From positions 1-20,877 of IMG/VR virus record IMGVR_UViG_3300005909_000008: a stretch of 20,877 nt of DNA; one strand, written 5' to 3'. The notes under the pieces are model-generated. The model was given only the letters and a program-made list of their open reading frames with translations. It ran no database searches and was not told the DNA's origin. The first letter of the stretch is position 1. Each line of letters opens with the position of its first letter. Of this stretch, positions 5,285 to 20,189 are shown piece by piece. Both the position numbers and the translations under genes were made by a program. Source of the DNA: a virus.

Positions 5285-5301
5285 TCAAAAGAGGTGATTT
5301 T

Positions 5302-6024
5302 ATGAAATTTAATTATTCAAACTATAAGGAGGATCGAGATATTGTCCCGGCCCCCTTAATGGCGAGAGAAAACCCCAATAAGGATGACCCCGATGGTCTT
5401 ATCCTTGAAAATGTCGACTCTGCCGGTGAGCTGGCAAGCGCCCAGATGCGATCCATGGCCATGAACGTTGTCCTGGCATGGGTTAATGGTGAAGACTTTT
5501 CTTACCTGGCCTTTGACGAATTCATGGTCGGGATGGCGGATCTTGACGGTGACGATGAATTAACCGATGAAGAAATAGCCGTTTATGAAGATCTATGGCA
5601 GATGGCCGCAGATGCCATGCTTTCTCTTGGTGCCGATGCTGACAATGTTGAGGAATTCCTTGACGGCGAAGATGATACTGCCGGTGAAAAACTTGGTGGT
5701 TTCCTGTCCGGTATCATGGACAAGATGCCGTCATCTGATAGCGAGATAACAACCTCATTCGCAACCGGAGTCGATGGCGCTGTCTTTGAGTGTGCTGGTG
5801 GTCTTGAAGGTATCGAAGATACCATTCTTGAAGCCGCATATAAAAAGACCAAGGTGGTCCGTGGCGGGAAAGTGGTGATTAAAAAGAAACGCATTTCCGG
5901 AAAAGTTCGTTTGTCATCAGCTCAAAGGGCGGGCCTCAAAAAAGCCAGACGCAAATCGAACACCTCTGCTGCTAAACTGCACAGGGCCAAATCTGCTCGT
6001 GTAAGAAAAAAACGAGGCATGTAA
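5302..6024 (+). CDS. Virion protein with acidic body and basic tail
   Basis: This 240-residue protein has two opposite halves. Residues 1-175 are acidic and helical and include DLDGDDELTDEE at about 74-85, which places Asp at positions 1, 3 and 5, Leu at 8 and Glu at 12 of an EF-hand calcium loop (the usual Gly at 6 is Asp). Residues 180-240 are dense in Lys and Arg (KKKRISGKVRLSSAQRAGLKKARRK, ending VRKKRGM), which suggests nucleic-acid or acidic-surface binding. An AGAGGTGA site lies just before the ATG, and the gene sits between sheath and tube-initiator-like genes. I do not recognise a family. It could be a minor structural or assembly protein. Confidence 0.75.
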   Translation: MKFNYSNYKEDRDIVPAPLMARENPNKDDPDGLILENVDSAGELASAQMRSMAMNVVLAWVNGEDFSYLAFDEFMVGMADLDGDDELTDEEIAVYEDLWQMAADAMLSLGADADNVEEFLDGEDDTAGEKLGGFLSGIMDKMPSSDSEITTSFATGVDGAVFECAGGLEGIEDTILEAAYKKTKVVRGGKVVIKKKRISGKVRLSSAQRAGLKKARRKSNTSAAKLHRAKSARVRKKRGM

Positions 6025-6027
6025 CGC

Positions 6028-6660
6028 ATGTCCTACTTGTGGGATCAGGGGAAGGCCGTGGGGAATAATGACCCCGCTGCTTCCCCTTACTTAAAAACCT
6101 GGATTTCCCAGGGAAACGTTCTTGTTTGTGGCGTTACCGGGGAAGGCACATCAAAAGAGATCCAGGCCAATTGGGACTCTCCTTTTGAGGGGGAATCCGC
6201 CGGGTCAAAAATTGGAGAGGTGACCGGTGGTGGAGAGGTGACCGGTGGCGTGGCTCAAGTTGTGACAGGCAGGACAAGTATCACCACGTTTCAATCCCGG
6301 CAGGTCTGGGGCGGAAATAGGCCAACTCAATTTAACGTTGTTCTACAACTTTATGCTTTAAGTGATCCGCAAACCGAGGTTATGGATGCCCTTGCTGCGC
6401 TTGAAAGAATGGCATCTCCTCAGGTCAACAGCACCGTGCCGGTAAGCCTTACAGGGAATTCAGCAGGGAATCACTTCGGAAGAATCCCCGGAACAGTAAT
6501 GATAAATATTGGCCGGAATGCCATTTACCCAGATTGTGTAATTGAAAGCGTATCTGTCCCTTTGGACAAAGAAGTGAACAAAGATGGATTGTTTATCCGC
6601 GCAGAAGTGAATCTCAGCATCCAAACTATGCAAATGCTTAACAGGTCCGATATCAGATAA
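6028..6660 (+). CDS. Tail tube / baseplate tube-initiator-like protein
   Basis: This 210-residue protein ends in the pattern of tube-fold proteins: QFNVVLQLYALSD, then GRIPGTVMINIG and the beta-hairpin CVIESVSVPLDKEVNKDGLFIRAEVNLSIQTMQML. The phrase 'Asp-Gly, hydrophobic strand, Ser-Ile-Gln-Thr' is common in T4 gp54/gp48-like tube-baseplate connectors. There is a small internal direct repeat (GEVTGG twice, 6219-6248). It starts three bases after the previous stop, with a GAGG inside that gene's end. Function as tail-tube cap or initiator is an inference from fold-like pattern and from its position beside the tube gene. Confidence 0.6.
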   Translation: MSYLWDQGKAVGNNDPAASPYLKTWISQGNVLVCGVTGEGTSKEIQANWDSPFEGESAGSKIGEVTGGGEVTGGVAQVVTGRTSITTFQSRQVWGGNRPTQFNVVLQLYALSDPQTEVMDALAALERMASPQVNSTVPVSLTGNSAGNHFGRIPGTVMINIGRNAIYPDCVIESVSVPLDKEVNKDGLFIRAEVNLSIQTMQMLNRSDIR

Positions 6661-6684
6661 CGGTACGGACAAAAGGAGCCTATA

Positions 6685-7212
6685 ATGGCCAATATTTCAG
6701 GTGTGCAGGGGAATGTAGCCCTGGTAAAAAAATCGTACAAAAAACTTTTGGCACTCGGAGAGGGCGTTTCTGGTGATGAATTCAAAATGACCATTGAAGG
6801 ATACCCGGATATTACCTATTTAATCCAAACATCTCAACTTCCTGCTCTTATGCGAGAAAATATTGAGTCGTTTGGGCCTCATGGCGTTCAATTCAACCAG
6901 CAGGGCCGGTTTAAAAATGCCCAGGAAGTTCCCATTTCATTCAAAGAAGTCATCACGGGGGTTGCATATCAAGCGATCCGTGAATGGGTCAAAGACAAAA
7001 AATATCTTAAGGTCGTCGTGGGACTGCTTGGTGAAAGTTTTACCTCTTCCAACGAAAACAACACTGTTGTGATGGAAGATTGTTGGCTTGAATTGGAAGG
7101 AGCTGACCTTTCCGTTGAAGATGGTGCAACATTAATTAAGCCTTCCGGGACACTCCATGCGAATTGGGTTGGTTGGCTTGATGATGAAGCAGAATTACTT
7201 TCAATGGAGTAA
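6685..7212 (+). CDS. Tail tube protein
   Basis: This 175-residue protein has the size and pattern of T4 gp19-like tail tube subunits, which stack as hexameric rings inside the sheath. Seen: an early strand EFKMTIEGYPDITYLIQTSQLPALMRENIESFGPHGVQFNQQGRFKNAQEVPISFKEV (about 32-92), then a helix AYQAIREWVKDKKY, and strands around CWLELEGADLSVEDG near the C-terminus. The conserved Ile-Gln-Thr-Ser-X-Leu-Pro and the Phe-Gly-Pro-X-Gly loop are typical of tube proteins. A good AGGAG site lies seven bases before the ATG. It follows the tube-initiator-like gene. Confidence 0.8.
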   Translation: MANISGVQGNVALVKKSYKKLLALGEGVSGDEFKMTIEGYPDITYLIQTSQLPALMRENIESFGPHGVQFNQQGRFKNAQEVPISFKEVITGVAYQAIREWVKDKKYLKVVVGLLGESFTSSNENNTVVMEDCWLELEGADLSVEDGATLIKPSGTLHANWVGWLDDEAELLSME

Positions 7213-7218
7213 TCACTC

Positions 7219-7767
7219 TTGACTCCTACACAGCTTCTTGATGAAGCAAAAACAAGATTTACGGTGCTTTATCACAACGATACAACATCCTTAAATATAC
7301 TTTTGAAACAGGCTCTTGGCAAGTATCAAGAGAAGGCAGGATCTGTCGGGACGGTTCAAATAAACCCGGAAGATGAGGGTGCGATTAGTCTCCCATCTGA
7401 CTATCTTGAAATCATGACGGCCATGGACGCGAATACAAGGTATATTGAAAGCTCTATCCAAAACGATAAAATAGACATTGTAGTCATTGATGATGAAACT
7501 GAATTTCCTGTCACGGTGCATTATTTTCAAAATCTCAGAGAATGGGTTCTTACTGAGAGTCTGCCCCCTGGAATGACCAGCATTCTACTTGATTATCTTG
7601 TGGCTCTGATTGATGTCCCAAACACAGAGAGGGAGAGAGCTGTGGCCGCAGCTACCAACATAGCTATTGAATTGCCGTCAAAGCAGGAACTTAGAGAAAG
7701 AGTTCTACAGCTTGAGGAGGCCATGGAAGAATCCAGATCAATTGGTATCCCTGTAGCAGTGTGGTAA
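7219..7767 (+). CDS. Head-tail adaptor / neck-like protein, TTG start
   Basis: This 182-residue protein starts at TTG, six bases after the tube stop. There is no ATG before codon 56 and the sequence reads as a natural N-terminus (MTPTQLLDEAKTRFTVLYHNDTTSLNILLKQALGKYQEKAG), so the TTG is preferred. The only SD-like site (GGAG in the last tube codons, about 7206-7209) is about nine bases away. The helical N-terminus, a SLPSDYLEI middle and a long C-terminal helix (KQELRERVLQLEEAMEES) resemble the small connector/adaptor proteins that seal the head-tail joint. The placement is by pattern; a tail-completion role is possible. Confidence 0.55.
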   Translation: MTPTQLLDEAKTRFTVLYHNDTTSLNILLKQALGKYQEKAGSVGTVQINPEDEGAISLPSDYLEIMTAMDANTRYIESSIQNDKIDIVVIDDETEFPVTVHYFQNLREWVLTESLPPGMTSILLDYLVALIDVPNTERERAVAAATNIAIELPSKQELRERVLQLEEAMEESRSIGIPVAVW

Positions 7768-7817
7768 AAATAACAGGTCTAAAAATAATAAAACATAAAT
7801 AAAGAGGAGTAATCACG

Positions 7818-8306
7818 ATGGAAAGTTATCAGCAAGAGTACAGAGAAATGGAACCAGATGATGCTAAATTGTGGGGTGACGATGGGTCCGGCGTTGAGGG
7901 CTTTGTCTCCGGGAACAGACTGACACTCAATGAAAATTTCGAGCTCGTGGCTACGACCACCGCTGCAAATGCTTTCACTGTGGGTGAGGTGGGTTATCTG
8001 GTCGCAGCTGGAACCATTACCATGGCTGATGCAGATGCTGTAGCGTCGGTAAACCCTTTGGTTGTAATGGCCCTTGGCACAATTGCAGCCGGTGAAGAGG
8101 GTACGTTTCAAATGCCCGTTGGTAAAAAGGTCACGGTAACCGGCCATGGATTCACGGTGGGCGCAGCTCTTTATATCAGCGGCACTGCGGGCGAGCTTAC
8201 GTCAACAGCCCCTGGTGCTGGTGGCTTTATTCGTATTGTGGCATATGCCCTTGATGCCAACACGCTGTATTTTACCGGTGGTGGTGGAATCGCAGCCGGT
8301 TCGTAA
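7818..8306 (+). CDS. Decoration-like beta protein
   Basis: This 162-residue protein is Gly/Ala/Thr-rich and beta-predicted. The pattern GKKVTVTGHGFTVGAALYISGTAGELTSTAPGAGGFIRIVAYALDANTLYF (about 108-155) matches the 'value-like' strands found in phage head-decoration and fibre-tip domains (similar to DUF2190-type proteins). The N-terminal 40 residues are charged. A strong GAGGAG site lies before the ATG and a terminator follows immediately, so it closes the capsid-sheath-tube unit. Function as a capsid surface protein is an inference. Confidence 0.6.
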   Translation: MESYQQEYREMEPDDAKLWGDDGSGVEGFVSGNRLTLNENFELVATTTAANAFTVGEVGYLVAAGTITMADADAVASVNPLVVMALGTIAAGEEGTFQMPVGKKVTVTGHGFTVGAALYISGTAGELTSTAPGAGGFIRIVAYALDANTLYFTGGGGIAAGS

Positions 8307-8324
8307 TTAGACAAATTAATTAAA

Positions 8325-8367
8325 ATAATGCCCCCTCCCATTACTTTGTGTGGTGGGGGCATTTTTA
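8325..8367 (+). terminator. Rho-independent terminator after the decoration-like gene
   Basis: A GC-rich stem AATGCCCCC (8327-8335) / GGGGGCATT (8355-8363), loop about 19 bases with possible further pairing, runs into a T tract (8362-8366). It separates the capsid/sheath/tube unit from the second unit, though read-through is likely because no clear promoter follows. Confidence 0.9.
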
Positions 8368-8382
8368 ACAGCCAGGTGATTG

Positions 8383-8883
8383 ATGTCAGAAGATTTTAAC
8401 ATGCTACGATTGAAAGTCCACACTCTTGTCGGAACTGATTTTAAGCAAGCCTGGGCGTTTAAGCTGGACATAGACGGGCAACCAGCTGACATGGACATTT
8501 ATGTCAAAGACATCACCTTTGGGCCAACTGAAATCGCGAACGATCCGGTAAAAGTCGGTGGCAAAACTCTTACGTTCCCAACCGGTGCAGAACCGGTATC
8601 TTTGTCTATGACGGTAAGGGATCATCGGGATGAGAGGGTAGCAAAATTTTTCGATGATTGGGCCACAGAAGTTGTGAATGCTGACGGCACGGTGAACCTG
8701 CCAGGTATAGACGGCAGTGGTTATGTAAGAAAGGCCAAAAGATACGCTCTAAATGAGGATGGAACAGAAGACCTGAGAAACACATGGGGAATATTCCCTG
8801 TTCAACGTGGAGATGTAACGGAGTCCCGGGAAGATGGAATGTTTCTTGAATTCCCGATGACATTTATTCAATTTCGTTCATAG
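8383..8883 (+). CDS. Second tail-tube-fold protein
   Basis: This 166-residue protein (from the ATG at 8383; a TTG one codon earlier is possible) resembles tube proteins: an N-terminal strand (MLRLKVHTLVGTDFKQAWAFKLDIDG), a SMTVRDHRDERVAKFFDDWATEVVNADG core, and closing strands WGIFPVQRGDVTESREDGMFLEFPMTFIQF. It may be a tail-completion, tube-initiator or baseplate hub protein of the tube fold, since it lies just upstream of the hub-assembly and tape-measure genes. An AGGTGA site lies very near the ATG. The tube-fold call is from pattern only. Confidence 0.55.
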   Translation: MSEDFNMLRLKVHTLVGTDFKQAWAFKLDIDGQPADMDIYVKDITFGPTEIANDPVKVGGKTLTFPTGAEPVSLSMTVRDHRDERVAKFFDDWATEVVNADGTVNLPGIDGSGYVRKAKRYALNEDGTEDLRNTWGIFPVQRGDVTESREDGMFLEFPMTFIQFRS

Positions 8884-8898
8884 AAAGGCACGGATGAT

Positions 8899-9699
8899 AT
8901 GAAAACAATACCTGAAATAACCCTCCCGAGTAATCCGAGTGTAACAATCCGGTTAAGGGAGACAACGGTTGCAGATGCAATTGATTTTGCTGGTGTGCAA
9001 GAAGGCATGGAAGAGGCTGTTACAAGTCTTTTTCTTGAGCGCTTGCAAGATAAAGCAACATTTACTGACCCCAAAAAATGGACCGGTGAAGATCGGCGTT
9101 TAGCGCTGTTCTGGTACTGGATGCACACCACAGATGAGTTTGACCCGGCATTATCCTTTGAGTGCTCGGTTTGCGGAGAAAACCATACAGTTGCTGTGGA
9201 TTTAAGGCAAATAGCGAACAACTACAAGGTGATCCAGGGGAAAGCCGAACGTGACGTTGAGTTTGAAGACGGAACCGTAATTGTTCGTCCATTATCCGGG
9301 GAAAGCCTGGAAACAATTGAAATGGTACGCCTTGAATTGATGGATGCCATAAAATCTGACGGCACCGGGTCTGGGAAGGCAAAAACCCTTAAGGCCAGGA
9401 TCAGTTTGTTAAAATTTATGCACAGTCTCGAATTTTCGGAAGAAAAAGGGGAGGATGACCCGATCGCTTTCCGGGAAAAGAAGATACTTGCAATGGGACA
9501 AGGGGCCTTTATCGAATTGGCAGATAAGGTTGAGTCAGCCATTTCCGAAATGGAGCATGGGTTACCCAGTCTTTATGAAAAGGGTAGAATATACCTGCTG
9601 ACCCCATCAATCCCATGCACCAAAACAAAGCACGAAAAGGAGGTAGGGACGCAATTGCGTTTACCGTTTCGGAATAGCGACTACATTCCAAGAATATAA
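8899..9699 (+). CDS. T4-type baseplate hub / tape-measure chaperone-like protein
   Basis: This 266-residue protein shows features of the T4 gp26/gp51-like 'baseplate hub subunit' family, which helps assemble the hub around the tape measure. Seen: N-terminal strand LRETTVADAIDF, an HTTDEF...ALSFECSVCGENHTVAVDLRQIANNY zinc-ribbon half (Cys-X2-Cys near 94-97), then VRPLSGESLETIEMVRLELMDAI. The C-terminal half is helical. It lies immediately before the tape-measure candidate, as chaperones do. An AAAGG site lies ten bases before the ATG. Alternative: an ordinary hub component. A +1/-2 frameshift into the following ORF is possible in principle but I see no convincing slip site. Confidence 0.55.
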   Translation: MKTIPEITLPSNPSVTIRLRETTVADAIDFAGVQEGMEEAVTSLFLERLQDKATFTDPKKWTGEDRRLALFWYWMHTTDEFDPALSFECSVCGENHTVAVDLRQIANNYKVIQGKAERDVEFEDGTVIVRPLSGESLETIEMVRLELMDAIKSDGTGSGKAKTLKARISLLKFMHSLEFSEEKGEDDPIAFREKKILAMGQGAFIELADKVESAISEMEHGLPSLYEKGRIYLLTPSIPCTKTKHEKEVGTQLRLPFRNSDYIPRI

Positions 9700-9715
9700 T
9701 GAGAGGCAATGGTCA

Positions 9716-9844
9716 ATGATTATTGAAAATCTTTGCCTTTACGGAGGGCAGGACATGGGATCTTTATTAAACGTCCCGAAATCAATGGCTATCACTCTTA
9801 ATAGCGCCTTGGTCAAAAAACAAAAATTGAAAAGAAAAAAATAA
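9716..9844 (+). CDS. Small coupled ORF, 42 residues
   Basis: This ORF begins at the ATG at 9716, nine bases after a GAGAGG site (9701-9706), and ends in TAA at 9842-9844, overlapping the tape-measure start by one base (TAATG). It encodes MIIENLCLYGGQDMGSLLN..., ending in a Lys-rich tail (KKQKLKRKK). The tape-measure gene has no good SD of its own, so this ORF could serve as a coupling leader. Small coupled ORFs before tape-measure genes are common in phages. I do not know its product's function. Confidence 0.5.
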   Translation: MIIENLCLYGGQDMGSLLNVPKSMAITLNSALVKKQKLKRKK

Positions 9845-12120
9845 TGCCTATTGCTGATGCTCAAATAGTTAAAAAGGAACCATCTGTAATCCCATTTGAG
9901 GATGCAGCCGATGACCATATTTTAAGTATGGTTAATATTCTTTCTGATCAATGGGACAGCATCGATGGGCTTAAAGATTCCATCAATAAAAGCGTAGTTC
10001 CCCTTTTAGCCTCAATAGAAAGGAATACGAGACTCCTTGACCCTGTTAAATCTATCAGAAAAAAAATCAGGGCCTCTAAGATTGCTGGGGCAAGCGCCGC
10101 TGATGGCTACAAAGCTCCTGTACCACGTACCACGAATACCCTAAAATCTGCTCCATGGGGGCGGCCTGGTGTTGACTCATCCGTGCAAGTTACGCCAGAT
10201 AAAGCTGTCCCCATCTCCCCCGCACAAAAAGCTGAAACACTCAAAAGAGAACAGACTGATATTGTCGGCGGAAAAGATACTGACAATTTTAGTGAGAGTT
10301 TGGTAAGCAAAAGGGTGGAGGACTTCAAAAAACAGGAATCTTTAAAAACAAAAGAGGCCAACAGAGAAAAACAATCCACGACTGAAAAGAAAACAGATAT
10401 AAAAGAAGTCGGGTCCAAAGATGCTGCAAACGAGGTAAAGCTCAAAAAAGAAAGAAAGCAGGAGCAAACCGGGTTCGCAGATAAGTTTAAGGACGTTGTA
10501 TCGGGTTGGGATGGCAACGTTCTTTCGCAGGGTGGCGGCAAAAGTGATGATCTGAAAGATGTAGTTGGCTCGGCAAGTGGCGGTGTCTTCTGGGCATCAA
10601 TAAAGGAATTAAGTGATGCTGCTGGGAGCCTGAACGAATCCAATGCCGATGACAAGAGTGTGACTGGGATGATCAAAAAGGCACTCATGGACAAGACCGG
10701 TATCACTACGGTCAAGGAAAAAGCATCTTCTGTAAAAGAAAAAACCATTGAAAAGATAAAGGGGTTTGCTTCCAAGGGAGAAAAGGCCGAACCATTATCC
10801 AAAGGGTATAAAAAAGATAAAAATGGCAAACTCAGAAACGGGAAAGGACATTTTGTCACTGGTCCTGAAAAGACGTTGCTCAATAAAAATGATGACTCCG
10901 GAGATGATCAAGCCGAAGCTCTTGGAGATATCTCAGATACTCTTAAAGCGACCGATAAAGAGGCTAAAAAACGGCATGATGAACTTGTAGGTGCCGTGGC
11001 CGCTGCCGGTGCTGGTGCTGGTGGCGGTGGTGGTTCTGGTTTTTTTGGAGACACGGGTCAGGATTTTTTTAGCAATAGCAATGGAAGTCGGGACAAGAAA
11101 AAAAAAGATAAGCGGAAAAACCAGAAAAAAAAGTACATCAAAAAAGGGGGGAAAGGCAGTCGCCTTGCTAAACTTTTATCGAAGGGTGGCGGCAAGCTTG
11201 GCAAACTTGGCAAGCTTGGTGGCATAGCAACAGCTGTCCTTGGCGGTGGCATGGGCATGGATGGAATGCTCCCTTCTATGCTCGGTGGGCTCGGAGGGCT
11301 TTTTGGAAACGACACCGAAGATGCATCACCTTCCCAAAATATCAAAAGGAATGTCACAGAAGCGGCCACAAATAAGGCGACTGACTCGGTATCTAATAGA
11401 ATCGAGAAAAAAGCGGCCAGCCGGGTAGAGAAAAAAGCGGCCAGCAAGGTTGCCAAGACCGCTGTGCAGAAAACTGCCACCAAATCAACCTCTAAAGTAG
11501 CGGGCCTGGCCTCTAAAATGGGTGGAAAGGGTATGTTAAAGGCGCTTTCCGGTGCCAGTAAAATGCTAAAAGTGCTCGGGCCGGTGGCAGCGATTGCGAC
11601 AGCTGGGGTTGATGCATACCAGGGCTATAACGACAAAGAAATGCAGTCTAAGGCGTTTGGTCTTAAAGAAGGTGAAGAGGCAACTGGTGGGCAAAAAACA
11701 GCCAGCGCAGTGGCCAATGTATTAGATATGGGTGGGTTGGTTTCAGGTGGCCTTGGTATGCTCGGTGCTGATATTGAAACGGCTGATATCGCAAAGGGTA
11801 TTTATGAGTTTTTCGGTGGCAAAAATGACAAAGAAGAAATTGCCAACGAAGCCACAGCCACAATTCAAAAAAAAGACAAGCCTAACCCGGAATCAATTCA
11901 AAAGCTTCGTGAGACAGCCGATGCCGGGAGGGCAATAGAACCGAACTCCACACAACCATCCATTGATAAACTGGCAAAGCAAGTCGAAAAACTGGCATTA
12001 AGCTTGGACCCTAAAAAATCAATAATGGGGTCTGTGAAAAAAGGCATGAAGGAAATTCCACAAATTATGACAGAATTTGATGATTCAACATTAACCCTTA
12101 TGGCGCATGATAGAATATGA
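9844..12120 (+). CDS. Tape-measure-like tail protein
   Basis: This 758-residue protein is the best tape-measure candidate: the longest in the tail region, placed after tube and chaperone-like genes. It has a helical N-terminus (about 1-80), a long Lys/Asp/Ser-rich coiled and disordered region (about 90-370), a Gly-rich stretch (about 385-405), a strongly basic patch (KKKKDKRKNQKKKYIKKGG, about 420-435), and two hydrophobic Gly/Ala/Leu regions (about 460-495 and 575-640) that may insert in the host membrane during ejection. An imperfect repeat (IEKKAASRVEKKAASKVAK) lies near 520-540. The start overlaps the previous stop and the end overlaps the gp25-like gene (ATGA). A tail of this gene length would be short to moderate. 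Sequence alone does not fix the role. Confidence 0.65.
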   Translation: MPIADAQIVKKEPSVIPFEDAADDHILSMVNILSDQWDSIDGLKDSINKSVVPLLASIERNTRLLDPVKSIRKKIRASKIAGASAADGYKAPVPRTTNTLKSAPWGRPGVDSSVQVTPDKAVPISPAQKAETLKREQTDIVGGKDTDNFSESLVSKRVEDFKKQESLKTKEANREKQSTTEKKTDIKEVGSKDAANEVKLKKERKQEQTGFADKFKDVVSGWDGNVLSQGGGKSDDLKDVVGSASGGVFWASIKELSDAAGSLNESNADDKSVTGMIKKALMDKTGITTVKEKASSVKEKTIEKIKGFASKGEKAEPLSKGYKKDKNGKLRNGKGHFVTGPEKTLLNKNDDSGDDQAEALGDISDTLKATDKEAKKRHDELVGAVAAAGAGAGGGGGSGFFGDTGQDFFSNSNGSRDKKKKDKRKNQKKKYIKKGGKGSRLAKLLSKGGGKLGKLGKLGGIATAVLGGGMGMDGMLPSMLGGLGGLFGNDTEDASPSQNIKRNVTEAATNKATDSVSNRIEKKAASRVEKKAASKVAKTAVQKTATKSTSKVAGLASKMGGKGMLKALSGASKMLKVLGPVAAIATAGVDAYQGYNDKEMQSKAFGLKEGEEATGGQKTASAVANVLDMGGLVSGGLGMLGADIETADIAKGIYEFFGGKNDKEEIANEATATIQKKDKPNPESIQKLRETADAGRAIEPNSTQPSIDKLAKQVEKLALSLDPKKSIMGSVKKGMKEIPQIMTEFDDSTLTLMAHDRI

Positions 12121-12470
12121 CTGATATCATAAGAGAAGCTGACCGGCTGATTAAATCCAGCATAGATGAAGAAGTAACCAAATTTGGTGATGGGGAGGCA
12201 TTGGCCGAAAGAATAAGGGAATGGCTCACGACTCCTGTTGGGACGGTTGCCGACAAACCCGGGTGGGGTCATGCTCTCAGCTCCTTTAAATTCGATCCTA
12301 CAAACTTAAGTCTTGATGTTGCAATTGAGATTGCAATTGCTAAAAAAATTCAAATCGATATTCGGGATCTTGTTTTTGTCGGTGTCCGAGCCGATTTTAT
12401 GGAAATTGACTTATGCAAGATCGTTATCCGACACCAGTTTGGGGATTCAGTATCATTGTTGAAACTATAA
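12117..12470 (+). CDS. gp25-like baseplate wedge protein
   Basis: This 117-residue protein has the size of T4 gp25-like wedge proteins, which link baseplate to sheath. The core shows LAERIREWLTTPVGTVADKPGWGHALSSF (about 28-57), which corresponds to the family's 'IR-LLTTP-GE---PEFG--L' pattern, followed by a DVAIEIAIAKKIQID helix and a closing strand IDLCKIVIRHQFGD. The start shares ATGA with the tape-measure stop, so translation is coupled. It lies just upstream of the gp6/J-like gene, the usual gp25-gp6 pairing in myophages and contractile injection systems. Confidence 0.75.
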   Translation: MTDIIREADRLIKSSIDEEVTKFGDGEALAERIREWLTTPVGTVADKPGWGHALSSFKFDPTNLSLDVAIEIAIAKKIQIDIRDLVFVGVRADFMEIDLCKIVIRHQFGDSVSLLKL

Positions 12471-12502
12471 TTTACTAAAAAAGCAAATGATTTAATATTA
12501 AA

Positions 12503-12549
12503 TATACTTTTTAAAGAGAAAAACACCTTTTATTCTCTTTGAAAGTATA
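12503..12549 (+). other. AT-rich long hairpin between wedge genes
   Basis: The 114-base gap between gp25-like and gp6-like genes holds an imperfect inverted repeat: outer arms TATACTTT (12503-12510) and AAAGTATA (12542-12549), an internal bulge (TT / G), then inner arms AAAGAGAA (12513-12520) and TTCTCTTT (12533-12540), loop 12 bases. There is no T tract after the stem, so a simple terminator is unlikely; mRNA processing or attenuation is possible. The rest of the gap is AT-rich with no recognisable gene. Confidence 0.6.
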
Positions 12550-12599
12550 CTATGCTGTAAAAGTTCAATATTATTGATATAGCCATGAGGTTACCTGTA

Positions 12600-14012
12600 A
12601 TGTATAGTGTTGAAGAGTCTGTAGAAAAATTTAAAGAAATACTGCAAGGCAAACCGTCATGGCAAAACCTGCAAGATTCACAGTTTGTTGAGCATTTAGC
12701 TATTCTGGCCGGATGGTCATTGCGGGATGCTCAATTCAAAGCAGAGCGGACTAAACAAGAATTTTTTATTGCATCGGCCCTGAACAGATCAAGCATTACC
12801 GCGCATGCGGAAGATAGGGAATATTTACCACGCAAGCCTATCGCTGCTACGGGAGCTGTAGAAATACGGAATAAAGGGGCGAATTCTGTTACGTTGCCAG
12901 CATATGTAGAACTCTACTCTGATGGTGATATTGTTTGTCGAACACTTGCACCTTCCATCATTCCCCCTGGCGGATCTTCTATTATATCGGTTGAACAAAA
13001 GACAAAAACCCAAATTACACATACGGTGTCAGAAGAGAAAGATTTTTATGAAATTCTTTTGTCTCGGGATATTACTTCTATGATTGCCGGGTTCGATGTA
13101 TTCGTCGATGAGGGCTATGGTTTCGAACAGTATCAATATGCAAGGTTATTCCAAAATGCCGAAAGTGACTCAAGGGTGTACGATGAATTTTACGCCCATA
13201 CTGAGCAGGTCGGTATAAGATTCGGCAATGGGATGTTTGGGCGTATCCCCACTATAGATACTGAAATTCGGCTTGATGTATTCGAAACCAAAGGCGATAT
13301 TTTTCTTTCGAATGGGCAGGAACTTTTTCCTACAAATGATATTTTTGATTCAAATAGAGAGATAGCACAGATTGAAATCCATGTAAGTACATCCGTCTCT
13401 GGTGGATCTCCACCAGAAGGAACAGAAGAAATAAGAAATAATCTTCGTTACTGGCCTACGTACAACGAAAAGTTAGTGTGGGACGATGACTATGTATTTT
13501 TTTTAAAACGCCGGTTCTCCCAAATCATCTTTGCCAAGGCGTGGGGAGAAACGGAGGCCGAGGCAATGGCCGGATCGCTACAATTTGATTTTATTAATAG
13601 AATATTTATTTGTGCGTATGCCGAAGATTATAGCGGTTTGGAAAGTGACTGTATCGAGGCTTTAAATAATGTGCCATTGCTCAATCGTAAGTTCACATGG
13701 CAAGATCCCGTTCATGTCGAATTCACTGTGTCTGTTACAGGGAAGGTGCTTAAAAGCGTGGTGCTATCGGATGTTGAGACGGCGATCAAAGATAAACTGA
13801 CTTTATATTACGGGCAGAACTCAACATCAAGGAGACCAAAAGTTTCTTTGTCAGAAGTATATGAATCTATCCAGAATACCGGTTATTTTGTCGCCTCTTC
13901 TGGGGCAAAATTTACGGCAAACATTGCCGGGCAATACGAACCGTCTTTTCTTTATGAAATGATTTCGATAGATATCGATAGCTCAACCTTTAATCTCACA
14001 TATATTGAATAG
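12600..14012 (+). CDS. gp6/J-like baseplate wedge protein
   Basis: This protein (470 residues) matches the long baseplate wedge proteins of the gpJ/T4 gp6 type, which form the baseplate iris dimers. Seen: helical N-terminal part (WQNLQDSQFVEHLAILAGWSLRDAQFKAERTKQEFFIASALNRSSITAHAEDREYLPRKPIAATGAVEI, where the 'Ala-X-Asp-Arg-Glu-Tyr' and 'Pro-X-Pro-Ile-Ala-Ala-X-Gly' motifs are typical), beta domain (about 90-265) and a helical C-terminal part (DVETAIKDKLTLYYGQNS, VSLSEVYESIQNTG). The ATG at 12600 is preferred over 12585 because GAGG (12587-12590) lies nine bases before it. The gp25-like and gpI-like genes flank it as expected. Confidence 0.75.
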   Translation: MYSVEESVEKFKEILQGKPSWQNLQDSQFVEHLAILAGWSLRDAQFKAERTKQEFFIASALNRSSITAHAEDREYLPRKPIAATGAVEIRNKGANSVTLPAYVELYSDGDIVCRTLAPSIIPPGGSSIISVEQKTKTQITHTVSEEKDFYEILLSRDITSMIAGFDVFVDEGYGFEQYQYARLFQNAESDSRVYDEFYAHTEQVGIRFGNGMFGRIPTIDTEIRLDVFETKGDIFLSNGQELFPTNDIFDSNREIAQIEIHVSTSVSGGSPPEGTEEIRNNLRYWPTYNEKLVWDDDYVFFLKRRFSQIIFAKAWGETEAEAMAGSLQFDFINRIFICAYAEDYSGLESDCIEALNNVPLLNRKFTWQDPVHVEFTVSVTGKVLKSVVLSDVETAIKDKLTLYYGQNSTSRRPKVSLSEVYESIQNTGYFVASSGAKFTANIAGQYEPSFLYEMISIDIDSSTFNLTYIE

Positions 14013-14013
14013 C

Positions 14014-14436
14014 ATGATTGATTGGTTAAAAAAAAGGCTATCAGGCTCACAAAAAGAGAGCGATAGGTATATTGAACTTGCCGAAGCTATCCAAGAATTT
14101 TGGGAACAAGATTTTGACCCTGAATTAGAAAAAATTATTAACCTGCGGTCTATATATGCTGCAGACATCGAAGGTCAAAAAGAAATTGTTTCTGAATTGG
14201 GAGGGTATTACGAGTATGATCTTCCTGATAAAAATATTCCCATATCCGTAGCGTTCAGAAAGCTTGAACTCTTTCAAAAAGATACTGAAATCCCCCTGGT
14301 AGCGTCATTAAAGCGACTGGAGTGGATGCCGAATGGAAACCCCTTTATGCCAGGAGGGGCGAAGCATATGGGACTGCTTTTTATACTACGGATGAAATTG
14401 AACCGACATGGATTGATGGTAGAGTGTTGCCATTAG
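14014..14436 (+). CDS. gpI-like baseplate protein, N-terminal part (frame broken)
   Basis: The first 100 residues (MIDWLKKRLSGSQKESDRYIELAEAIQEFWEQDFDPELEKIINLRSIY...) read like the N-terminus of P2 gpI-type tail proteins, with the helix VAFRKLELFQKDTEIPLVASLKR. After Leu-Lys-Arg (about 14316) this frame turns to unconvincing sequence and stops at 14436. The natural continuation (GVDAEWKPLYARRGEAYGTAFYTT) is in the -1 frame. The ATG at 14014 is preferred over an in-frame TTG at 14005. Its start follows the wedge stop by one base. The residues after about position 101 are probably not real product unless frameshifting fails. Confidence 0.6.
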   Translation: MIDWLKKRLSGSQKESDRYIELAEAIQEFWEQDFDPELEKIINLRSIYAADIEGQKEIVSELGGYYEYDLPDKNIPISVAFRKLELFQKDTEIPLVASLKRLEWMPNGNPFMPGGAKHMGLLFILRMKLNRHGLMVECCH

Positions 14437-15194
14437 ACGGATCTTGGCAGGTAAGCGCAACGACTCCCTGGGAGTTGGCGGATGGTGTGTTCTTGACATC
14501 CAGAGGTCGGCTGAATGTTAATTTAGCTACCTTATCAAGCCAGTCTTTGCTTGATACTGTCAGAGACCGGATTCAAGGCATAAAGCCATTGCATATAGTA
14601 TTTGAAGGTTTTTCATATCATGTGGCGTTTGAGGTGTTTGTGTCATTAAGAACAGAGACCGAGGCGATATTGGAGGCCAGCACTTATACGAGGGCGTTAT
14701 ATTGCGCAAATCCATTAGATGGTTCCTGGAAGCTCGGCAGGTCTGCTCTGAATATAAGCGTTGACGGTACATGGCAATTAAGTGGCGATGTGGCTGTGGG
14801 TCAGGTGATTCCTGCTGTGCCCGAAAGGCAGTTAATCAATTGCCGAACCCAGACAAGCGCAGAAGTGAGTACCGAGTTTTCGGTTTTAGCCGGGTTGCCA
14901 GATCTTTCACAGGAACCCTGGTTCCAACTTAAAAACAACTCCTGGTTCTCATTGATTGTGGTGCAGCGAAAACTTGATGGGAGCTGGGCAGTAGGCGCGG
15001 ATAAAAAACTTGATGGCACTTGGCTATTGGGCGGTTTTGTAAAATTGAACGCTCTTAATTTGGGCACTGTAGGGCTTAATCGGCTAGAAAATGGTCTAAA
15101 GATAGGATACCAGGCGCAAATACTGGATGGATCACGAAAAATTGGGCTTATGCCCCCTGAATGCGAAACCTGGCCATCTGTGAAGGCGGCTTGA
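14322..15194 (+). CDS. gpI-like baseplate protein, C-terminal part with LDGSW repeats
   Basis: This frame begins, in conserved sequence terms, with TGVDAEWKPLYARRGEAYGTAFYTTDEIEP, the continuation of the gpI-like N-terminal part. The formal start is a GTG at 14322 with no spaced SD, so independent initiation is unlikely. A middle helical/beta region with RDRIQGIKPLHIVFEGFSYHVAFEVFVSL (about 84-112) fits gpI-like proteins, and the rest has short repeats of (L/V)DG(S/T)W (near 14433, 14716, 14761, 14972, 15008, 15122), a motif I associate with phage tail-fibre-attachment extensions. Together with the upstream part it would form about 393 residues. It is followed by the fibre-attachment gene, as gpI precedes fibre genes. 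Confidence 0.65.
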   Translation: MDAEWKPLYARRGEAYGTAFYTTDEIEPTWIDGRVLPLDGSWQVSATTPWELADGVFLTSRGRLNVNLATLSSQSLLDTVRDRIQGIKPLHIVFEGFSYHVAFEVFVSLRTETEAILEASTYTRALYCANPLDGSWKLGRSALNISVDGTWQLSGDVAVGQVIPAVPERQLINCRTQTSAEVSTEFSVLAGLPDLSQEPWFQLKNNSWFSLIVVQRKLDGSWAVGADKKLDGTWLLGGFVKLNALNLGTVGLNRLENGLKIGYQAQILDGSRKIGLMPPECETWPSVKAA

Positions 15195-15215: not shown

Positions 15216-15590
15216 ATGGCTAATCAGGGCAGCACCGATGGATTCCGAGCGGATCTGGCCGCAATGTATTTTGAAAGAATGACAACCGGGCCGCTGACTG
15301 TTGAGTTCGGCGATGGAGGGCACGAGGAGGATGGTACTCCGAAGCCATTTGACCCGGCCCAAACAGAACTGAACAACAGTCTTCTTTCGAAAGCTCCAGA
15401 AGTTTTTTCTATGCCGGATGACTGGTCTATCCAAATTACCGGAAAATTGGAAGACTCGGAGCTGGTAGGCGAAGAAGTCAGTGAATTCGGGATATTCCTG
15501 GATGGTAGTCTGGTTGCATTACGGAATAATTCAAAAAAAGTCAAAGACAGCGATGAAGAATATCCGATTACAATAACGATCTATTTTTAG
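15216..15590 (+). CDS. Tail-fibre attachment / collar-like protein
   Basis: This 124-residue protein has the pattern of fibre-attachment domains in P2-like tails: a GDGGHEEDGTPKPFDPAQTELNNSLLSKAPEVF segment (about 32-65), then strands ITGKLEDSELVGEEVSEFGIFLDGSLVALRNNSKKVKDSDEEYPITITIYF with the 'E-X-GIF-X-D-G-X-LVA' motif common to phage fibre N-terminal domains. It has a GGAGG site eight bases before the ATG and is followed 13 bases later by the fibre gene. It likely connects the fibre to the baseplate. No enzyme motif is seen. Confidence 0.65.
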   Translation: MANQGSTDGFRADLAAMYFERMTTGPLTVEFGDGGHEEDGTPKPFDPAQTELNNSLLSKAPEVFSMPDDWSIQITGKLEDSELVGEEVSEFGIFLDGSLVALRNNSKKVKDSDEEYPITITIYF

Positions 15591-15603: not shown

Positions 15604-18438
15604 ATGTCACTCCCCAATGAACCAATAACCCCGATACCGAACACAGACCCCGACGCGGTTCCATCACTTTGGAACACAAGGTATGTGGAGATAGATGAAA
15701 ACTTCGCTAACCTGAATAGCCGGGCTGAAGCTGTGGAGAATGAACTGGAAACGGCAATGGGAAGCGAAGAAACATTTTCAGCCAGATTTTTGGCTGTCGT
15801 CAACGAAGTCGTAAGCGTTGGCGACCGTGTAGGTGATATTGAGTTGGACAGTGCCCAGGCTGTCAGTGATGCCGTGCGGTTGGACTGGCTGTACCGCAAC
15901 TTGCGCATGGCTGTGGAACTCTGGACACCGAATTGGACCTTGCTTGATGATATTAACTTGACCGTCGTCCAGGCCGTGGCAGGAGATAACTCTGTAGACG
16001 TGGACGCCACCGCCAATTTGGTTGTAGACCAGGAATATGTAATTGATGACGGGACAAACCGTGAATCTTTAGTTGTAGAAGAGATTTTATCAGCGACCCG
16101 TTTCACTGCAACTACCAACCTTGTTAACTCGTTTTCCGCAGGAGCAGTAACCCGTTCGAATTTCACTATCGAAAACGGGATAGCAACGGCCCTGGCAGGG
16201 CGGCTCTATTTCTGTGGGCCGATGGATCTTGGTTCAGAAGATACGGACAAAGCAGTCATCATCCGCAGGGATGATAATGACACGCTGATGAGAATTTTTT
16301 TCAAGGACTCTTCGCATGAAGCATGGACCGAAGCGACTTGGGAATGGCAAAGAAATGTCGAAACCGGCATCATTGATGTCGAATACCGAGTGCCCGCACG
16401 GGGGGAACTGGATATAAAGATAGCTATTGAGGCGGGTTCGGCAACCAGTGAAGTCGATATCCACCATATTGTCGGAGTGCATGCTGACACCAGTTTGGAA
16501 GGTACCCATCATCCACCTGAAATGCCGGTCAATAGCAGTCCGGCGGACACTGCCGAAGGCGTAACAGAAACCCCAACTATTTCAGTCGCTTCTTATGCTT
16601 CGGTTGTGGGATCTTCCCTTTGGGCTTCTCAGTTACAGGTAACAACCGTTTCTGAAGATTACACGACTCCGGTATATGACTCTGGGACGTCTATTCCGGG
16701 TGCCCTTGGCATGCCTGTTGCGGCTGGATTGTTGGTTGAGAACACTGCATACTACTGGCGTATGCGCCTACAGGATACCGAAGGTGCCTGGTCCGAATGG
16801 TCTGCCGAAACGAGCTTTACTACAAATGCCTCGTTCGAATATGTCAACACCCCTGTCAACCAGTCCCCAGGTGCAGGTGCTGTTGACATTTCCGAGCAAC
16901 CGTCACTTTCATCAAGTCCGTTTGATACAACCGATTTTTCGTTAATATCACTGAGTGATGGGGCAACGGATAAATGGACGGACTCACCCGCAACAACTGG
17001 CGAATATTATTTTTCAGCTGCGGGTGGTCCCACAAACAAACCCATAGGCGTGTATGCTAATAGCGCCCTGCTTTCCGAAGGAACATTGGGAAGCCTGAGT
17101 AATGATGAATGGGCGTGGGGAGATCAGGATACTATCGGTAGCGATCGCATTTATGTGAAGCTGGCTATTGGTGATCCAGATGCCCAGATTGAGGATTATA
17201 TTCAATGCAGCGAATCCCATACCGTATCACAATGGCAGATCAGAACCGCTATTGGGGACTATTCAACACCGCTGTATGACTCAGGTGAAAGCACGGACTT
17301 AGAAAGTCATATTGTCCCTATAGGAAATCTTGAAGAGGGTGAAAGCGATTATTTTTTCCGGGTCCGGCATGAGGGTGAAAATATTGGATTCTCGGAATGG
17401 TCTTCTGAATCAAGATTTACCACCAAAAACGTTTTTGCCAACATTGTTGGTATCGCCATGGTTTCTTCCGGTGGCGGAGCAGGAGTATTTCAGCGTATTG
17501 ATGAGGACGGTAATAATAAAACCACGGATGCTGCTTTCTTTAATAATCATCCTGTTTTTGGTGACATTTCGAATGTCACCATTGACAGCCAGGCCATGGT
17601 AAAGATTCCCAAATTTTATGCCAAACAGGGCACGGTTGCGGCTGGCGCAGATCAGGCTGGCAAAAAAGCATGGTGGGTTAGCGATCAGCCTGTCTCTGGC
17701 TTTTCTCTGGAATCAGCGTTCATGGATGGCGGAGTTGAGCTTGATCAGTTTTATTACGGCGCATATGAAGCCACAAATGACGGCGGGACAAAAGCCGGAT
17801 CGGCTACCGGGGTTGCACCGCTGGTTTCAATTGATTTTCCGACTATGCAAACCCGTTGCACTGCCAGAAACACTGGTGGGGTGGATGGGTTCCATATGGC
17901 AAACATTCATGAACTGTCTGCTATCCAATTGCTAATTCTGATTGAAAACGGTGGTCCTGATGTCCAAAGCACAATCGGTATTGGGAACACTGCATCTTCT
18001 GCGGCTGTTAACACCGGCGCGAGCAACGCGGTTTGGCGCGGTATTTATGAATTATGGGGCAATGTTAACTGCATGATTGACGGGCTTCAGTTCGATACTG
18101 CTAACCAGATTAAAGTTTTTGATCAGAATGGCAACGGAACATATGTTGCGACAGGAGTTACGGCATCAACAACAGATGCCTGGATCACCGGGATGCATGA
18201 AAATATTGGGACTGGTTTTGATCTGAGGACGCTGTTCATCGGTGAGACTTTTGATGCAACAGAGAGCAACGGATCATTTGGCGATTATCAATATTCTCCA
18301 GATTCGGCTGAAAACAATGTGTGTCATCACGGTGGCGGCTGGGGCTACGGTTCTCAGGCTGGTTTGTTCTGCCTGCACCTGGTCAACGACGCTTCGGACT
18401 CGCGCCCGGACGACGGTTCCCGCCTGGCAAAAGTGTGA
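15604..18438 (+). CDS. Tail fibre with DGR-variable lectin tip
   Basis: This 944-residue protein is the target of the retroelement. In order: an N-terminal segment (about 1-60), beta/coiled region (60-290), a fibronectin-III-like module with WSEWS and SFTT (about 303-402), and a second one ending in FSEWSSESRFTT (about 415-602). Inside the second sits an inserted domain (about 442-533: DGATDKW..., EYYFSAAGGP, GTLGSLSNDEWAWGDQDTIGSDRIYVKLAIGDPDAQIEDYI), a module common in phage proteins. The C-terminal region (about 610-944) has FGE/C-type-lectin-like features (YELWGNVNCMIDG near 816-829) and ends in the variable repeat (residues 909-942). An AAGGAG site precedes the ATG. It should act outside the cell as receptor-binding protein. 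Confidence 0.85.
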   Translation: MSLPNEPITPIPNTDPDAVPSLWNTRYVEIDENFANLNSRAEAVENELETAMGSEETFSARFLAVVNEVVSVGDRVGDIELDSAQAVSDAVRLDWLYRNLRMAVELWTPNWTLLDDINLTVVQAVAGDNSVDVDATANLVVDQEYVIDDGTNRESLVVEEILSATRFTATTNLVNSFSAGAVTRSNFTIENGIATALAGRLYFCGPMDLGSEDTDKAVIIRRDDNDTLMRIFFKDSSHEAWTEATWEWQRNVETGIIDVEYRVPARGELDIKIAIEAGSATSEVDIHHIVGVHADTSLEGTHHPPEMPVNSSPADTAEGVTETPTISVASYASVVGSSLWASQLQVTTVSEDYTTPVYDSGTSIPGALGMPVAAGLLVENTAYYWRMRLQDTEGAWSEWSAETSFTTNASFEYVNTPVNQSPGAGAVDISEQPSLSSSPFDTTDFSLISLSDGATDKWTDSPATTGEYYFSAAGGPTNKPIGVYANSALLSEGTLGSLSNDEWAWGDQDTIGSDRIYVKLAIGDPDAQIEDYIQCSESHTVSQWQIRTAIGDYSTPLYDSGESTDLESHIVPIGNLEEGESDYFFRVRHEGENIGFSEWSSESRFTTKNVFANIVGIAMVSSGGGAGVFQRIDEDGNNKTTDAAFFNNHPVFGDISNVTIDSQAMVKIPKFYAKQGTVAAGADQAGKKAWWVSDQPVSGFSLESAFMDGGVELDQFYYGAYEATNDGGTKAGSATGVAPLVSIDFPTMQTRCTARNTGGVDGFHMANIHELSAIQLLILIENGGPDVQSTIGIGNTASSAAVNTGASNAVWRGIYELWGNVNCMIDGLQFDTANQIKVFDQNGNGTYVATGVTASTTDAWITGMHENIGTGFDLRTLFIGETFDATESNGSFGDYQYSPDSAENNVCHHGGGWGYGSQAGLFCLHLVNDASDSRPDDGSRLAKV
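18329..18430 (+). repeat. DGR variable repeat (VR)
   Basis: These 102 bases at the fibre 3' end match the template repeat without gaps (offset 549). There are 14 differences, all at template A positions: nine A to G, three A to C, two A to T. The 3' end (18413-18430, GGTTCCCGCCTGGCAA region) is invariant and GC-rich and likely holds the homing-initiation site (IMH); after 18430 the two sequences part. Eleven residues differ from the template-encoded sequence. Confidence 0.97.
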
Positions 18439-18470
18439 TTTGTTTTTTGGTTTCTGATGCTTTGGTTTTA

Positions 18471-18484
18471 GCTGCGATAGCAGC
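18471..18484 (+). promoter_or_regulatory. Hairpin downstream of VR
   Basis: A perfect 5-bp stem GCTGC / GCAGC with a four-base GATA loop lies 40 bases after the VR, between fibre and avd. In BPP-1 a hairpin or cruciform with a G-purine-N-A loop just downstream of the target promotes retrohoming. The loop matches that pattern but the stem is short, so the role is possible, not proven. Confidence 0.4.
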
Positions 18485-18513
18485 GGTTAACAATATTAAG
18501 AGGTGATTTAACA

Positions 18514-18876
18514 ATGGGCCTGGATGATCTGACAATTTTAACAAAACTTGAGGAACTTGATGCGTATTCCCATGGAACTTTAATCAATTTCCCAAAATAT
18601 GAAAAATTTGTACTTTGTGCAGAAATCAGACAGACCCATTCCACTATTATGAAGCTAACGGTTCGGGCGGCTAAACGATATTATAAAAAGACCACACTTC
18701 AGGATCTTGACGTTGAAATCGAATATCTTAGAAGCCTGGTTCGGAAGGCCCACACAATGAAATATATTAATACAAGGAAATACGGCATATGGATTAAACA
18801 TATCAACGAGATAGGTAAAATGGCAGGGGGCTGGATAAAATCCAGCAAACAAACAATACACCGGGTGACTGCTTAA
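18514..18876 (+). CDS. avd: DGR accessory variability protein Avd
   Basis: This 120-residue, all-helical basic protein (many Lys/Arg: TVRAAKRYYKKTTLQDLDVEIEYLRSLVRKAHTMKYINTRKY) has the length and four-helix-bundle pattern of Avd (Bordetella bAvd is 128 residues), which forms a basic pentamer that binds the DGR RNA and the reverse transcriptase. An AGAGGTGA site precedes the ATG. The stop at 18874-18876 is one base from the template repeat, exactly as expected for the avd-TR arrangement. The call depends on pattern plus position. Confidence 0.85.
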   Translation: MGLDDLTILTKLEELDAYSHGTLINFPKYEKFVLCAEIRQTHSTIMKLTVRAAKRYYKKTTLQDLDVEIEYLRSLVRKAHTMKYINTRKYGIWIKHINEIGKMAGGWIKSSKQTIHRVTA

Positions 18877-18877
18877 T

Positions 18878-18979
18878 ACGGTGGCAACTGGGACAACGGT
18901 TCTCAGGCTGGTTTGTTCTACCTGAACCTGAACAACGACGCTTCGAACTCGAACACGAACAACGGTTCCCGCCTGGCAA
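18878..18979 (+). repeat. DGR template repeat (TR)
   Basis: This 102-base unit lies between avd and RT and is not a coding sequence itself. It is rich in AAC codons in the VR frame (nine), which upon adenine mutagenesis can give most amino acids but no stop codon. Twenty-six adenines are present, 14 of which differ in the VR. The template-encoded peptide in the VR frame is GGNWDNGSQAGLFYLNLNN and onward. Confidence 0.97.
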
Positions 18980-19050
18980 GCAATACGGCCAGAAGTTAGA
19001 GTCCCATGGGATTTTATCCAGCGCTTTTTATTTGGGGCGGTCATCCCTCT

Positions 19051-19070
19051 TCCCTGGCAAACGCCAGGGA
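19051..19070 (+). other. Stable hairpin in TR-RT spacer
   Basis: A perfect 8-bp stem TCCCTGGC / GCCAGGGA with loop AAAC. There is no following T tract, so it is not a typical terminator. The 3' arm (GCCAGG, 19063-19068) can also pair with CCTGGC at the TR 3' end (18972-18977), suggesting alternative folds of the DGR RNA. Confidence 0.7.
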
Positions 19071-19148
19071 CAGAAAAGATAACTCATGACCGTGCGGCAA
19101 GTAGGCCTAAACGCTGAACGTGGCACGGATCTTAAAAGAAAGAATTTT

Positions 19149-20189
19149 ATGACTAAAACGTACAATAATATATGGCCTGAGATCACAGGCTGGGACAATC
19201 TCTATAACGCTTTCGTGGCTGCTAAAAAAGGAAAGCGTTATAAGCCTGGGACATTGCGGTTTACTGCAAACCTGGAAGAAAATATTACCAATATTCAAAA
19301 CCATTTGCTATGGGGGTCATGGGAACCATCTCCTTGGAAAGAATTTATGGTTTATGACCCTAAGCACAGGCTGATCCAAGCACCACCATTCAAAGACCGG
19401 GTGGTGCACCATGCGCTGGTGGATGCTATAGAACCATTGTTTGAGAAAAAAACTATCTTTGATTCGTATGCCTGCCGAAGGGGTAAGGGGTTCCACGCAT
19501 CTGTGAAGCGTGTTCAGACTTTCTTGCGCAAAGCTGCCGTGAATGGAGATAAGGTTTATGTGTTGAAAGCTGATATTTCAAAGTATTTCCCATCTATAAA
19601 CCATGATGCTTTATATGATATTCTTTGCCGTACCATCAAAGACAAACAAGTCCTCAGCCTGTGCAATACCATCATAAAAAACACAGGGTTTGAAGGGCGT
19701 GGTATCCCGGTTGGGGCATTAACAAGTCAACTATACGCAAATCTATACATAGGGCAACTTGATCATTATATGAAGGATGATCTTGGGGTTAAATTCTATT
19801 GCAGATACATGGATGATTTCATCATCGTTCACAATAACAAAAAAACCCTTTGGAGTTTGTTGGAAAAAGCTGTTGAGTTTTTAACCAAGAATCTCATGCT
19901 GACGCTTAATCCTAAAACGGCCATTTTCCCTGCTGTTCGGGGAGTTGATTTTTGCGGATATCGTATTTGGAAAAATTATATCCTGCCCAGAAAAAGAATC
20001 ATCCGTAATGCCAGACGTCACCTTTCTCACCTTGCAAGTCTTTGTTCCAGGGGCATCATTTCTCTTGAAATGGTTCGCCAGAGCGTAATGAGCTTCCTTG
20101 GCTATATGAAGCATTGTAATGGATACAAAACAACTGAAAATATTTTGTTAGACACAACAATTAGAAGGAGGTCACATGGAATTAGGTAA
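19149..20189 (+). CDS. DGR reverse transcriptase
   Basis: This 346-residue protein copies the TR RNA into error-prone cDNA. RT motifs in order: PKHRLIQAPPFKDRVVHHALVDAIEPLFE near 75-103, YACRRGKG near 111-118, LKADISKYFPSINHDALY around 138-155, GIPVGALTSQLYANLYIGQLD (about 186-206), RYMDDFIIVHN with the catalytic YMDD at 220-223, and FCGYRIW near 267-273. The V/I-G-X-X-X-S-Q motif (GALTSQ) is the DGR hallmark, where group II intron RTs have QGXXXSP. The start at 19149 (MTKTYNNIWPEITGWDNL) is preferred to the upstream ATG at 19086, as BPP-1 RT begins near the same place. Its stop lies within the next gene's start (overlap 14 bases). Confidence 0.95.
   Translation: MTKTYNNIWPEITGWDNLYNAFVAAKKGKRYKPGTLRFTANLEENITNIQNHLLWGSWEPSPWKEFMVYDPKHRLIQAPPFKDRVVHHALVDAIEPLFEKKTIFDSYACRRGKGFHASVKRVQTFLRKAAVNGDKVYVLKADISKYFPSINHDALYDILCRTIKDKQVLSLCNTIIKNTGFEGRGIPVGALTSQLYANLYIGQLDHYMKDDLGVKFYCRYMDDFIIVHNNKKTLWSLLEKAVEFLTKNLMLTLNPKTAIFPAVRGVDFCGYRIWKNYILPRKRIIRNARRHLSHLASLCSRGIISLEMVRQSVMSFLGYMKHCNGYKTTENILLDTTIRRRSHGIR

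Follow-up and report, generated by a model that had tools for sequence, protein, structure and literature searches.

A complete diversity-generating retroelement at the tail-fibre position of a P1-type contractile-tail phage

We analysed a 20,877-base stretch of viral DNA, IMG/VR record IMGVR_UViG_3300005909_000008, which is a fragment; the whole stretch is referred to as the window, and all coordinates without another source are those of the window. A complete diversity-generating retroelement (DGR) is found at 18329-20189, downstream of genes for a tail sheath, tubes and a baseplate. All of its parts lie on the + strand in the order variable repeat (VR), avd, template repeat (TR) and reverse transcriptase (RT), and its target is a tail fibre. 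An earlier, sequence-only reading of this DNA had proposed such an element, in one orientation, in BPP-1-like order and in a contractile-tail setting, and our analysis agrees with it on each of these points. The cassette and its target comprise the following features:

15604-18438, + strand: tail fibre gene, the DGR target (944 aa; phrog_5302 tail protein, 1e-29; Ig_Rha78A_N)
18329-18430, + strand: VR (102 nt matching the TR, in the last part of the fibre gene, which stops 8 nt further on)
18413-18430, + strand: candidate initiation of mutagenic homing (IMH) site (18-nt block equal to 18962-18979, at the identical VR 3' end; placed by analogy with BPP-1)
18471-18484, + strand: DNA hairpin GCTGC-GATA-GCAGC (40 nt past the VR end; GRNA-type loop)
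18514-18876, + strand: avd, accessory variability determinant (120 aa, computed isoelectric point 9.7)
18878-18979, + strand: TR (starts 1 nt past the avd stop codon, 549 bases downstream of the VR)
18980-19148, + strand: TR-to-RT spacer with a structured DGR RNA (conserved match 18980-19136)
19149-20189, + strand: DGR RT (346 aa; VGALTSQ and YMDD)

The TR and the VR are identical at 88 of 102 positions, and all mismatches are located at adenines of the TR (14/14), a bias with a hypergeometric p of 1.6e-10 given the 26 A among the 102 TR nt. The changed adenines are G (9), C (3) or T (2) in the VR, and non-adenine differences are absent across the 102 nt. None of the 33 TR codons tested, many of which are AAC, can become a stop through an adenine change, and the number of proteins reachable through such changes was computed as about 10^13.6. 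A second VR was searched for within the window and was not found. A related locus, L008, has one TR and two VRs (4897-4998 and 11796-11897 of that locus); the second is part of a different lectin-type gene, some 5 kb downstream of the RT.

Concerning the two proteins of the cassette, Avd had been described from the letters as short and basic, which its length and isoelectric point confirm. It matches NF033474 at 108.6 bits (cut-off 80), PF22296 (bAvd) above the cut-off, and phrog_3206. The RT matches phrog_1423 at 9e-131 and RVT_1 above the cut-off, and is 37% identical to Brt of BPP-1 over 295 aa (E 8e-68). The signature of RTs of the DGR lineage, [ILV]GxxxSQ together with YxDD, is present, so that the GALTSQ motif and the intact YMDD of the sequence-only reading hold. 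The longest RT open frame, from 19086, is too long; the ATG at 19149 is the RT start, because relatives and Brt align from residue 1 there, and 19086-19148 is part of the TR-to-RT spacer, being mostly structured RNA. The avd and RT frames are open, and none of the cassette's parts was found to be broken. A promoter scan of the cassette gave results near chance.

The fibre consists of an N-terminal segment of about 62 aa common to the P1-type relatives L006 and L007 (58-65% identical), a middle part resembling immunoglobulin (Ig) and fibronectin III (FN3) domains, and a C-type-lectin C-terminus which contains the VR. The last part was modelled with AlphaFold2 (residues 524-944, 19 homologues), and this prediction has a mean confidence (pLDDT) of 87.5. 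Among known structures the model comes closest to TaqVP, a DGR variable protein (5VF4; Z 28.0, 2.7 A over 252 residues), and then to Treponema TvpA (Z 15.9), proteins of the formylglycine-generating enzyme (FGE) type and BPP-1 Mtd (Z 13.4); the ~87 residues at its start resemble fibronectin III domains (Z about 8). Based on these matches, the model supports a C-type-lectin domain at the VR-bearing end, atop an Ig/FN3-like stalk. The lectin-like end of the long fibre had been a guess in the earlier reading, and the predicted fold supports it.

The spacer between the TR and the RT was examined with a covariance model, R1, which was built from 18 relatives with the window left out. R1 has a sole match in the window (79.2 bits, E 3.6e-25) and, in a wider search, also matches most other DGR loci, some of which are near copies of the building sequences. 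In the alignment which includes the window 91.8% of the cells pair, and 94 cells are changed on both sides, versus 29 in shuffled alignments (0/500) and 21-35 with the partners slid. The Rfam family RT-14 (RF02921) is found above its gathering score in the spacers of three related loci (L004, L006 and L007); the window spacer is related to this family but scores 28.4, below the gathering score of 48.1. Since RT-14 sits in TR-to-RT spacers of related DGRs above the gathering score, it is a DGR spacer RNA, at least in the loci studied. In Rfam the family is annotated merely as a small RNA (sRNA); it is now tied to the spacer RNA of DGRs in these loci, and the new model picks up this RNA across many related DGRs. 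L027, L091 and L092 each have a pair of DGR-type spacer RNAs, separated by about 1.7 kb. Between those of L027 a further RT frame, an avd and a further TR-like stretch are readable, which makes these tandem DGR cassettes.

The hairpin downstream of the VR has a GRNA loop like the hairpins described by Guo et al. (PMC3240598), which have GC stems of 7-10 bp and are located 4-34 bp from the VR; its own stem is 5 bp. In the set we examined, a GRNA hairpin follows 35 of the 62 VRs (that of the window counted) and none of the 62 TRs (0/62), and a stem of at least 5 bp with such a loop was not seen after 27 of the 62 VRs of the DGR relatives. The specific hairpin search has a shuffle rate of 0.0015. 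A group resembling Bordetella hinzii (L012-L014 and L017-L023) seemingly has a 3-nt loop, CAA or CGA, in the hairpin after the VR, not GRNA.

The genes upstream of the fibre are those of a P1-type tail cluster:

2-868: incomplete gene encoding tandem repeats of ~20 aa (SEKDAGNSLSVYLQN-type; at 270-485, 3.6 copies of a 60-nt unit)
868-1185: PAAR tip gene
3560-12470, + strand: P1-type morphogenesis genes (sheath, PmgG, tube, PmgC, tub, PmgB, Sit-like, PmgA-like)
12585-14012, + strand: P1 BplA-like baseplate protein (31% to P1 BplA, E 1.6e-71)
14005-15194, + strand: P1 gp16-like gene (phrog_2015 halves; frameshift between about 14292 and 14331)
15216-15590, + strand: baseplate or fibre-base protein between gp16 and the fibre (weak phrog_9521, 1.1e-5, and phrog_5417)

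The stretch 7219-15194 is collinear with P1 in the order PmgC, tub, PmgB, Sit, PmgA, BplA and gp16 (blastp, E 5e-4 to 2e-71), and the identities to P1 are 33% for PmgC, 37% for tub, 27% for PmgB, 47% over 83 residues for the Sit-like protein, 35% for PmgA and 31% for BplA. Among phage records the BplA-like protein matches those of P1, P7, D6 and related enterobacterial phages. Homologues of the fibre-base protein (36-40%) are found at the matching position in L004, L006 and L007. The partial gene at 2-868 directly precedes the PAAR tip gene and has no notable family match; its product is probably a spike or baseplate protein.

After gp16, P1 carries R, S, U and the C-segment, which is invertible by Cin; at this point the window has the fibre-base protein and the DGR fibre. 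No window protein matches R, S, U or Cin; the contig ends 0.7 kb past the RT, and such genes may lie further on. Conversely, the annotation of 30 kb around the fibre genes of P1 contains no DGR parts, although no search of all of P1 for avd, an RT or a DGR fibre was made. A scan for distant BplA relatives gave 80 loci, many of which are closely related to one another, and 44 of these P1-type IMG/VR loci extend at least 5.2 kb beyond BplA: a P1-type R or S is present in 40 of the 44, a Cin homologue, within the DNA covered, in six and a DGR in one. The latter is L124, the contig of L007 (3300035548_000535). L126 was considered as a further DGR-bearing P1-type phage, having the same fibre base, and was rejected: 10 kb of it contain no RT and no adenine-biased repeat.

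Taken as a whole, the element is almost certainly a canonical BPP-1-type DGR which varies the tip of the fibre in a contractile-tail phage of the P1 type. What the window itself shows of the proposed mechanism is its parts, their intactness, adenine-only changes in the VR and, as a prediction, the lectin fold; biochemistry, homing and host-range effect are taken over from BPP-1. By this analogy, the RT and Avd would bind an RNA which consists of the spacer and the TR, and reverse transcription of the TR would insert random bases opposite each adenine. The resulting cDNA would then take the place of the VR in the terminal part of the fibre gene, directed there by the 3' end that both repeats have in common and by the small DNA hairpin downstream. 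Because the VR encodes the end of the C-type-lectin tip, every round would give a fibre with a new tip, and such new tips most likely change the receptors that the phage can bind. As the TR and the VR lack any non-adenine difference, the repeats suggest that homing took place not long ago on the evolutionary scale. In pairs of relatives with identical TRs, the differences between the VRs are also found at adenines: 15/15 in L012/L018, 11/12 in L015/L016, 19/19 in L043/L057, 15/15 in L059/L060 and 15/15 in L072/L073.

Several observations weigh against an active element which switches receptors. Receptor switching is proposed by analogy, and a second copy from the window's own phage was not found: a masked TR pattern gave no identical TR in viral contigs, and scans with the sheath and with a single BplA sequence gave no close relative. 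At 5 bp, the stem of the hairpin falls short of the 7-10 bp in Guo et al., in whose work a shortened stem of the BPP-1 hairpin lowered activity (PMC3240598), and the hairpin does not stand out by folding energy (z -1.8). In the contig the gp16 homologue carries a frameshift, whereas in L124 it is one open frame; the shift may be genuine damage to the gene or may stem from an error in the reads or the assembly. The short stem and the frameshift would fit a decayed or lately silenced DGR, which diversified the fibre in the past and has since lost homing, within a phage or a remnant of a prophage itself in decay. We consider this unlikely: both avd and the RT have open frames, VGALTSQ and YMDD are preserved in the latter, the spacer RNA is conserved, drift without homing would have added some non-adenine differences to the 102 nt of the repeats, where there are 0, and the frameshift may come from assembly or reads. 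The sequence-only reading had called the system working-looking and capable of switching host receptors; the first part stands as far as anatomy is concerned, whereas activity and receptor switching are what we infer. The P1-type layout, the spacer RNA, the hairpin after the VR, the RT start at 19149 and the gp16 frameshift are additions to that reading.

Another purpose for the same machinery is also conceivable. C-type-lectin folds bind many partners, and the DGR might vary a surface protein for general adhesion or for the evasion of recognition by the host or by neighbours. However, the target is a virion fibre encoded immediately after the baseplate genes and starts with a segment common to the fibre gene at the matching position in P1-type relatives, which makes this explanation very unlikely. 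The idea that the RT derives from a different type of element (a group II intron, a retron or a defence-associated RT, DRT), with the repeat being an ordinary duplication, has next to no probability. The RT does match group II and DRT/retron models, but all far under their cut-offs, and its best match is the phage DGR RT family; Avd, the adenine bias and the DGR spacer RNA accompany it, and an ordinary duplication would not give 14 of 14 changes at adenines. An identity of the RT as group II intron, retron or DRT is refuted by this joint evidence. The preferred reading is therefore still that of a canonical DGR acting on a phage fibre.

Compared with known systems, the window has the same parts in the same order as the BPP-1 DGR (mtd-avd-TR-brt), a GRNA hairpin after the VR and a C-type-lectin tip on the target in both cases, and a spacer of similar length (169 nt versus 144 nt in BPP-1). 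Unlike the window phage, BPP-1 is a Rauchvirus and not P1-type. The repeats are 102 nt in the window and 134 in BPP-1, the Avd proteins are 20% identical, and the hairpin has a stem of 5 bp at 40 nt from the VR compared with 8 bp at a few nt. R1 fails to detect the BPP-1 record. DGRs are also present in the P1-like phage-plasmids p0908 and pAMBAS45, which have an annotated avd and an RT 43% identical to that of the window. P1-type capsid, sheath and Pmg genes are shown for p0908, which has been described, with its relative pVv01, as P1-like (PMC4132613). In p0908 and pAMBAS45 the DGR precedes the genes for baseplate V and the capsid, whereas that of the window follows gp16; DGRs are thus found at no fewer than two positions in P1-type elements.

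The closest relatives differ depending on the part of the window considered. The virion genes and the first 62 residues of the fibre are closest to L006, L007 and L124 (75-79% at the start of gp16, 58-65% at the fibre N-terminus). L007/L124 has a BplA 45% identical to that of the window, a gp16 75% identical over the first 110 aa, and a fibre base and a DGR in the matching slot. Its target, however, is a separate lectin protein of 338 aa beside the fibre, and that of the window is fused as the fibre tip; its Avd is 40% identical and its spacer belongs to the RT-14 class. In contrast, the sister of the window in the trees is L005 (IMG/VR contig 2829501449; support 95/90 for the RT and 97/90 for Avd). 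Its Avd is 68% identical, the C-terminus of its target 50% identical, and its spacer is of the same class. The target C-terminus also reaches 57% identity to L015, and has no such match in L007. L005 has no match to the P1-type tail genes of the window, and its target is a short stand-alone protein of 354 aa near anti-repressor and C4-RNA genes, compared with the fibre tip of the window. At 2221-2293 of L005 a C4 antisense RNA (RF01695) is found with an anti-repressor gene, upstream of the DGR target.

With virion genes and fibre N-terminus nearest to L124/L007, and Avd, RT and spacer class going with L005, we infer that cassette replacement at a fixed slot accounts for the mosaic. The fuller form of this idea, towards which we lean slightly, is that P1-type phages swap whole fibre-diversifying modules at one slot after gp16 (Cin with R, S and U in P1, a DGR in the window phage and in L124), and that a cassette of the L005 type was acquired here, its lectin tip being fused to the N-terminal attachment segment of the resident fibre.

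Phage-fibre DGRs have been known since BPP-1 and more than 30,000 DGRs were analysed by Roux et al. (PMC8144416), so the element itself is one more case; its P1-type setting is uncommon. The Cin/C-segment of P1 occupies the same slot after BplA and gp16 and also varies the fibre, by inverting between two preset fibre ends without a reverse transcriptase, where the window uses a DGR. Because the cassette occupies this slot, its mutagenesis probably serves the end for which P1 uses inversion. The two phages offer a natural comparison of two unrelated ways to diversify a tail fibre, one by site-specific inversion and the other by mutagenic retrohoming, at one slot of otherwise collinear P1-type clusters.

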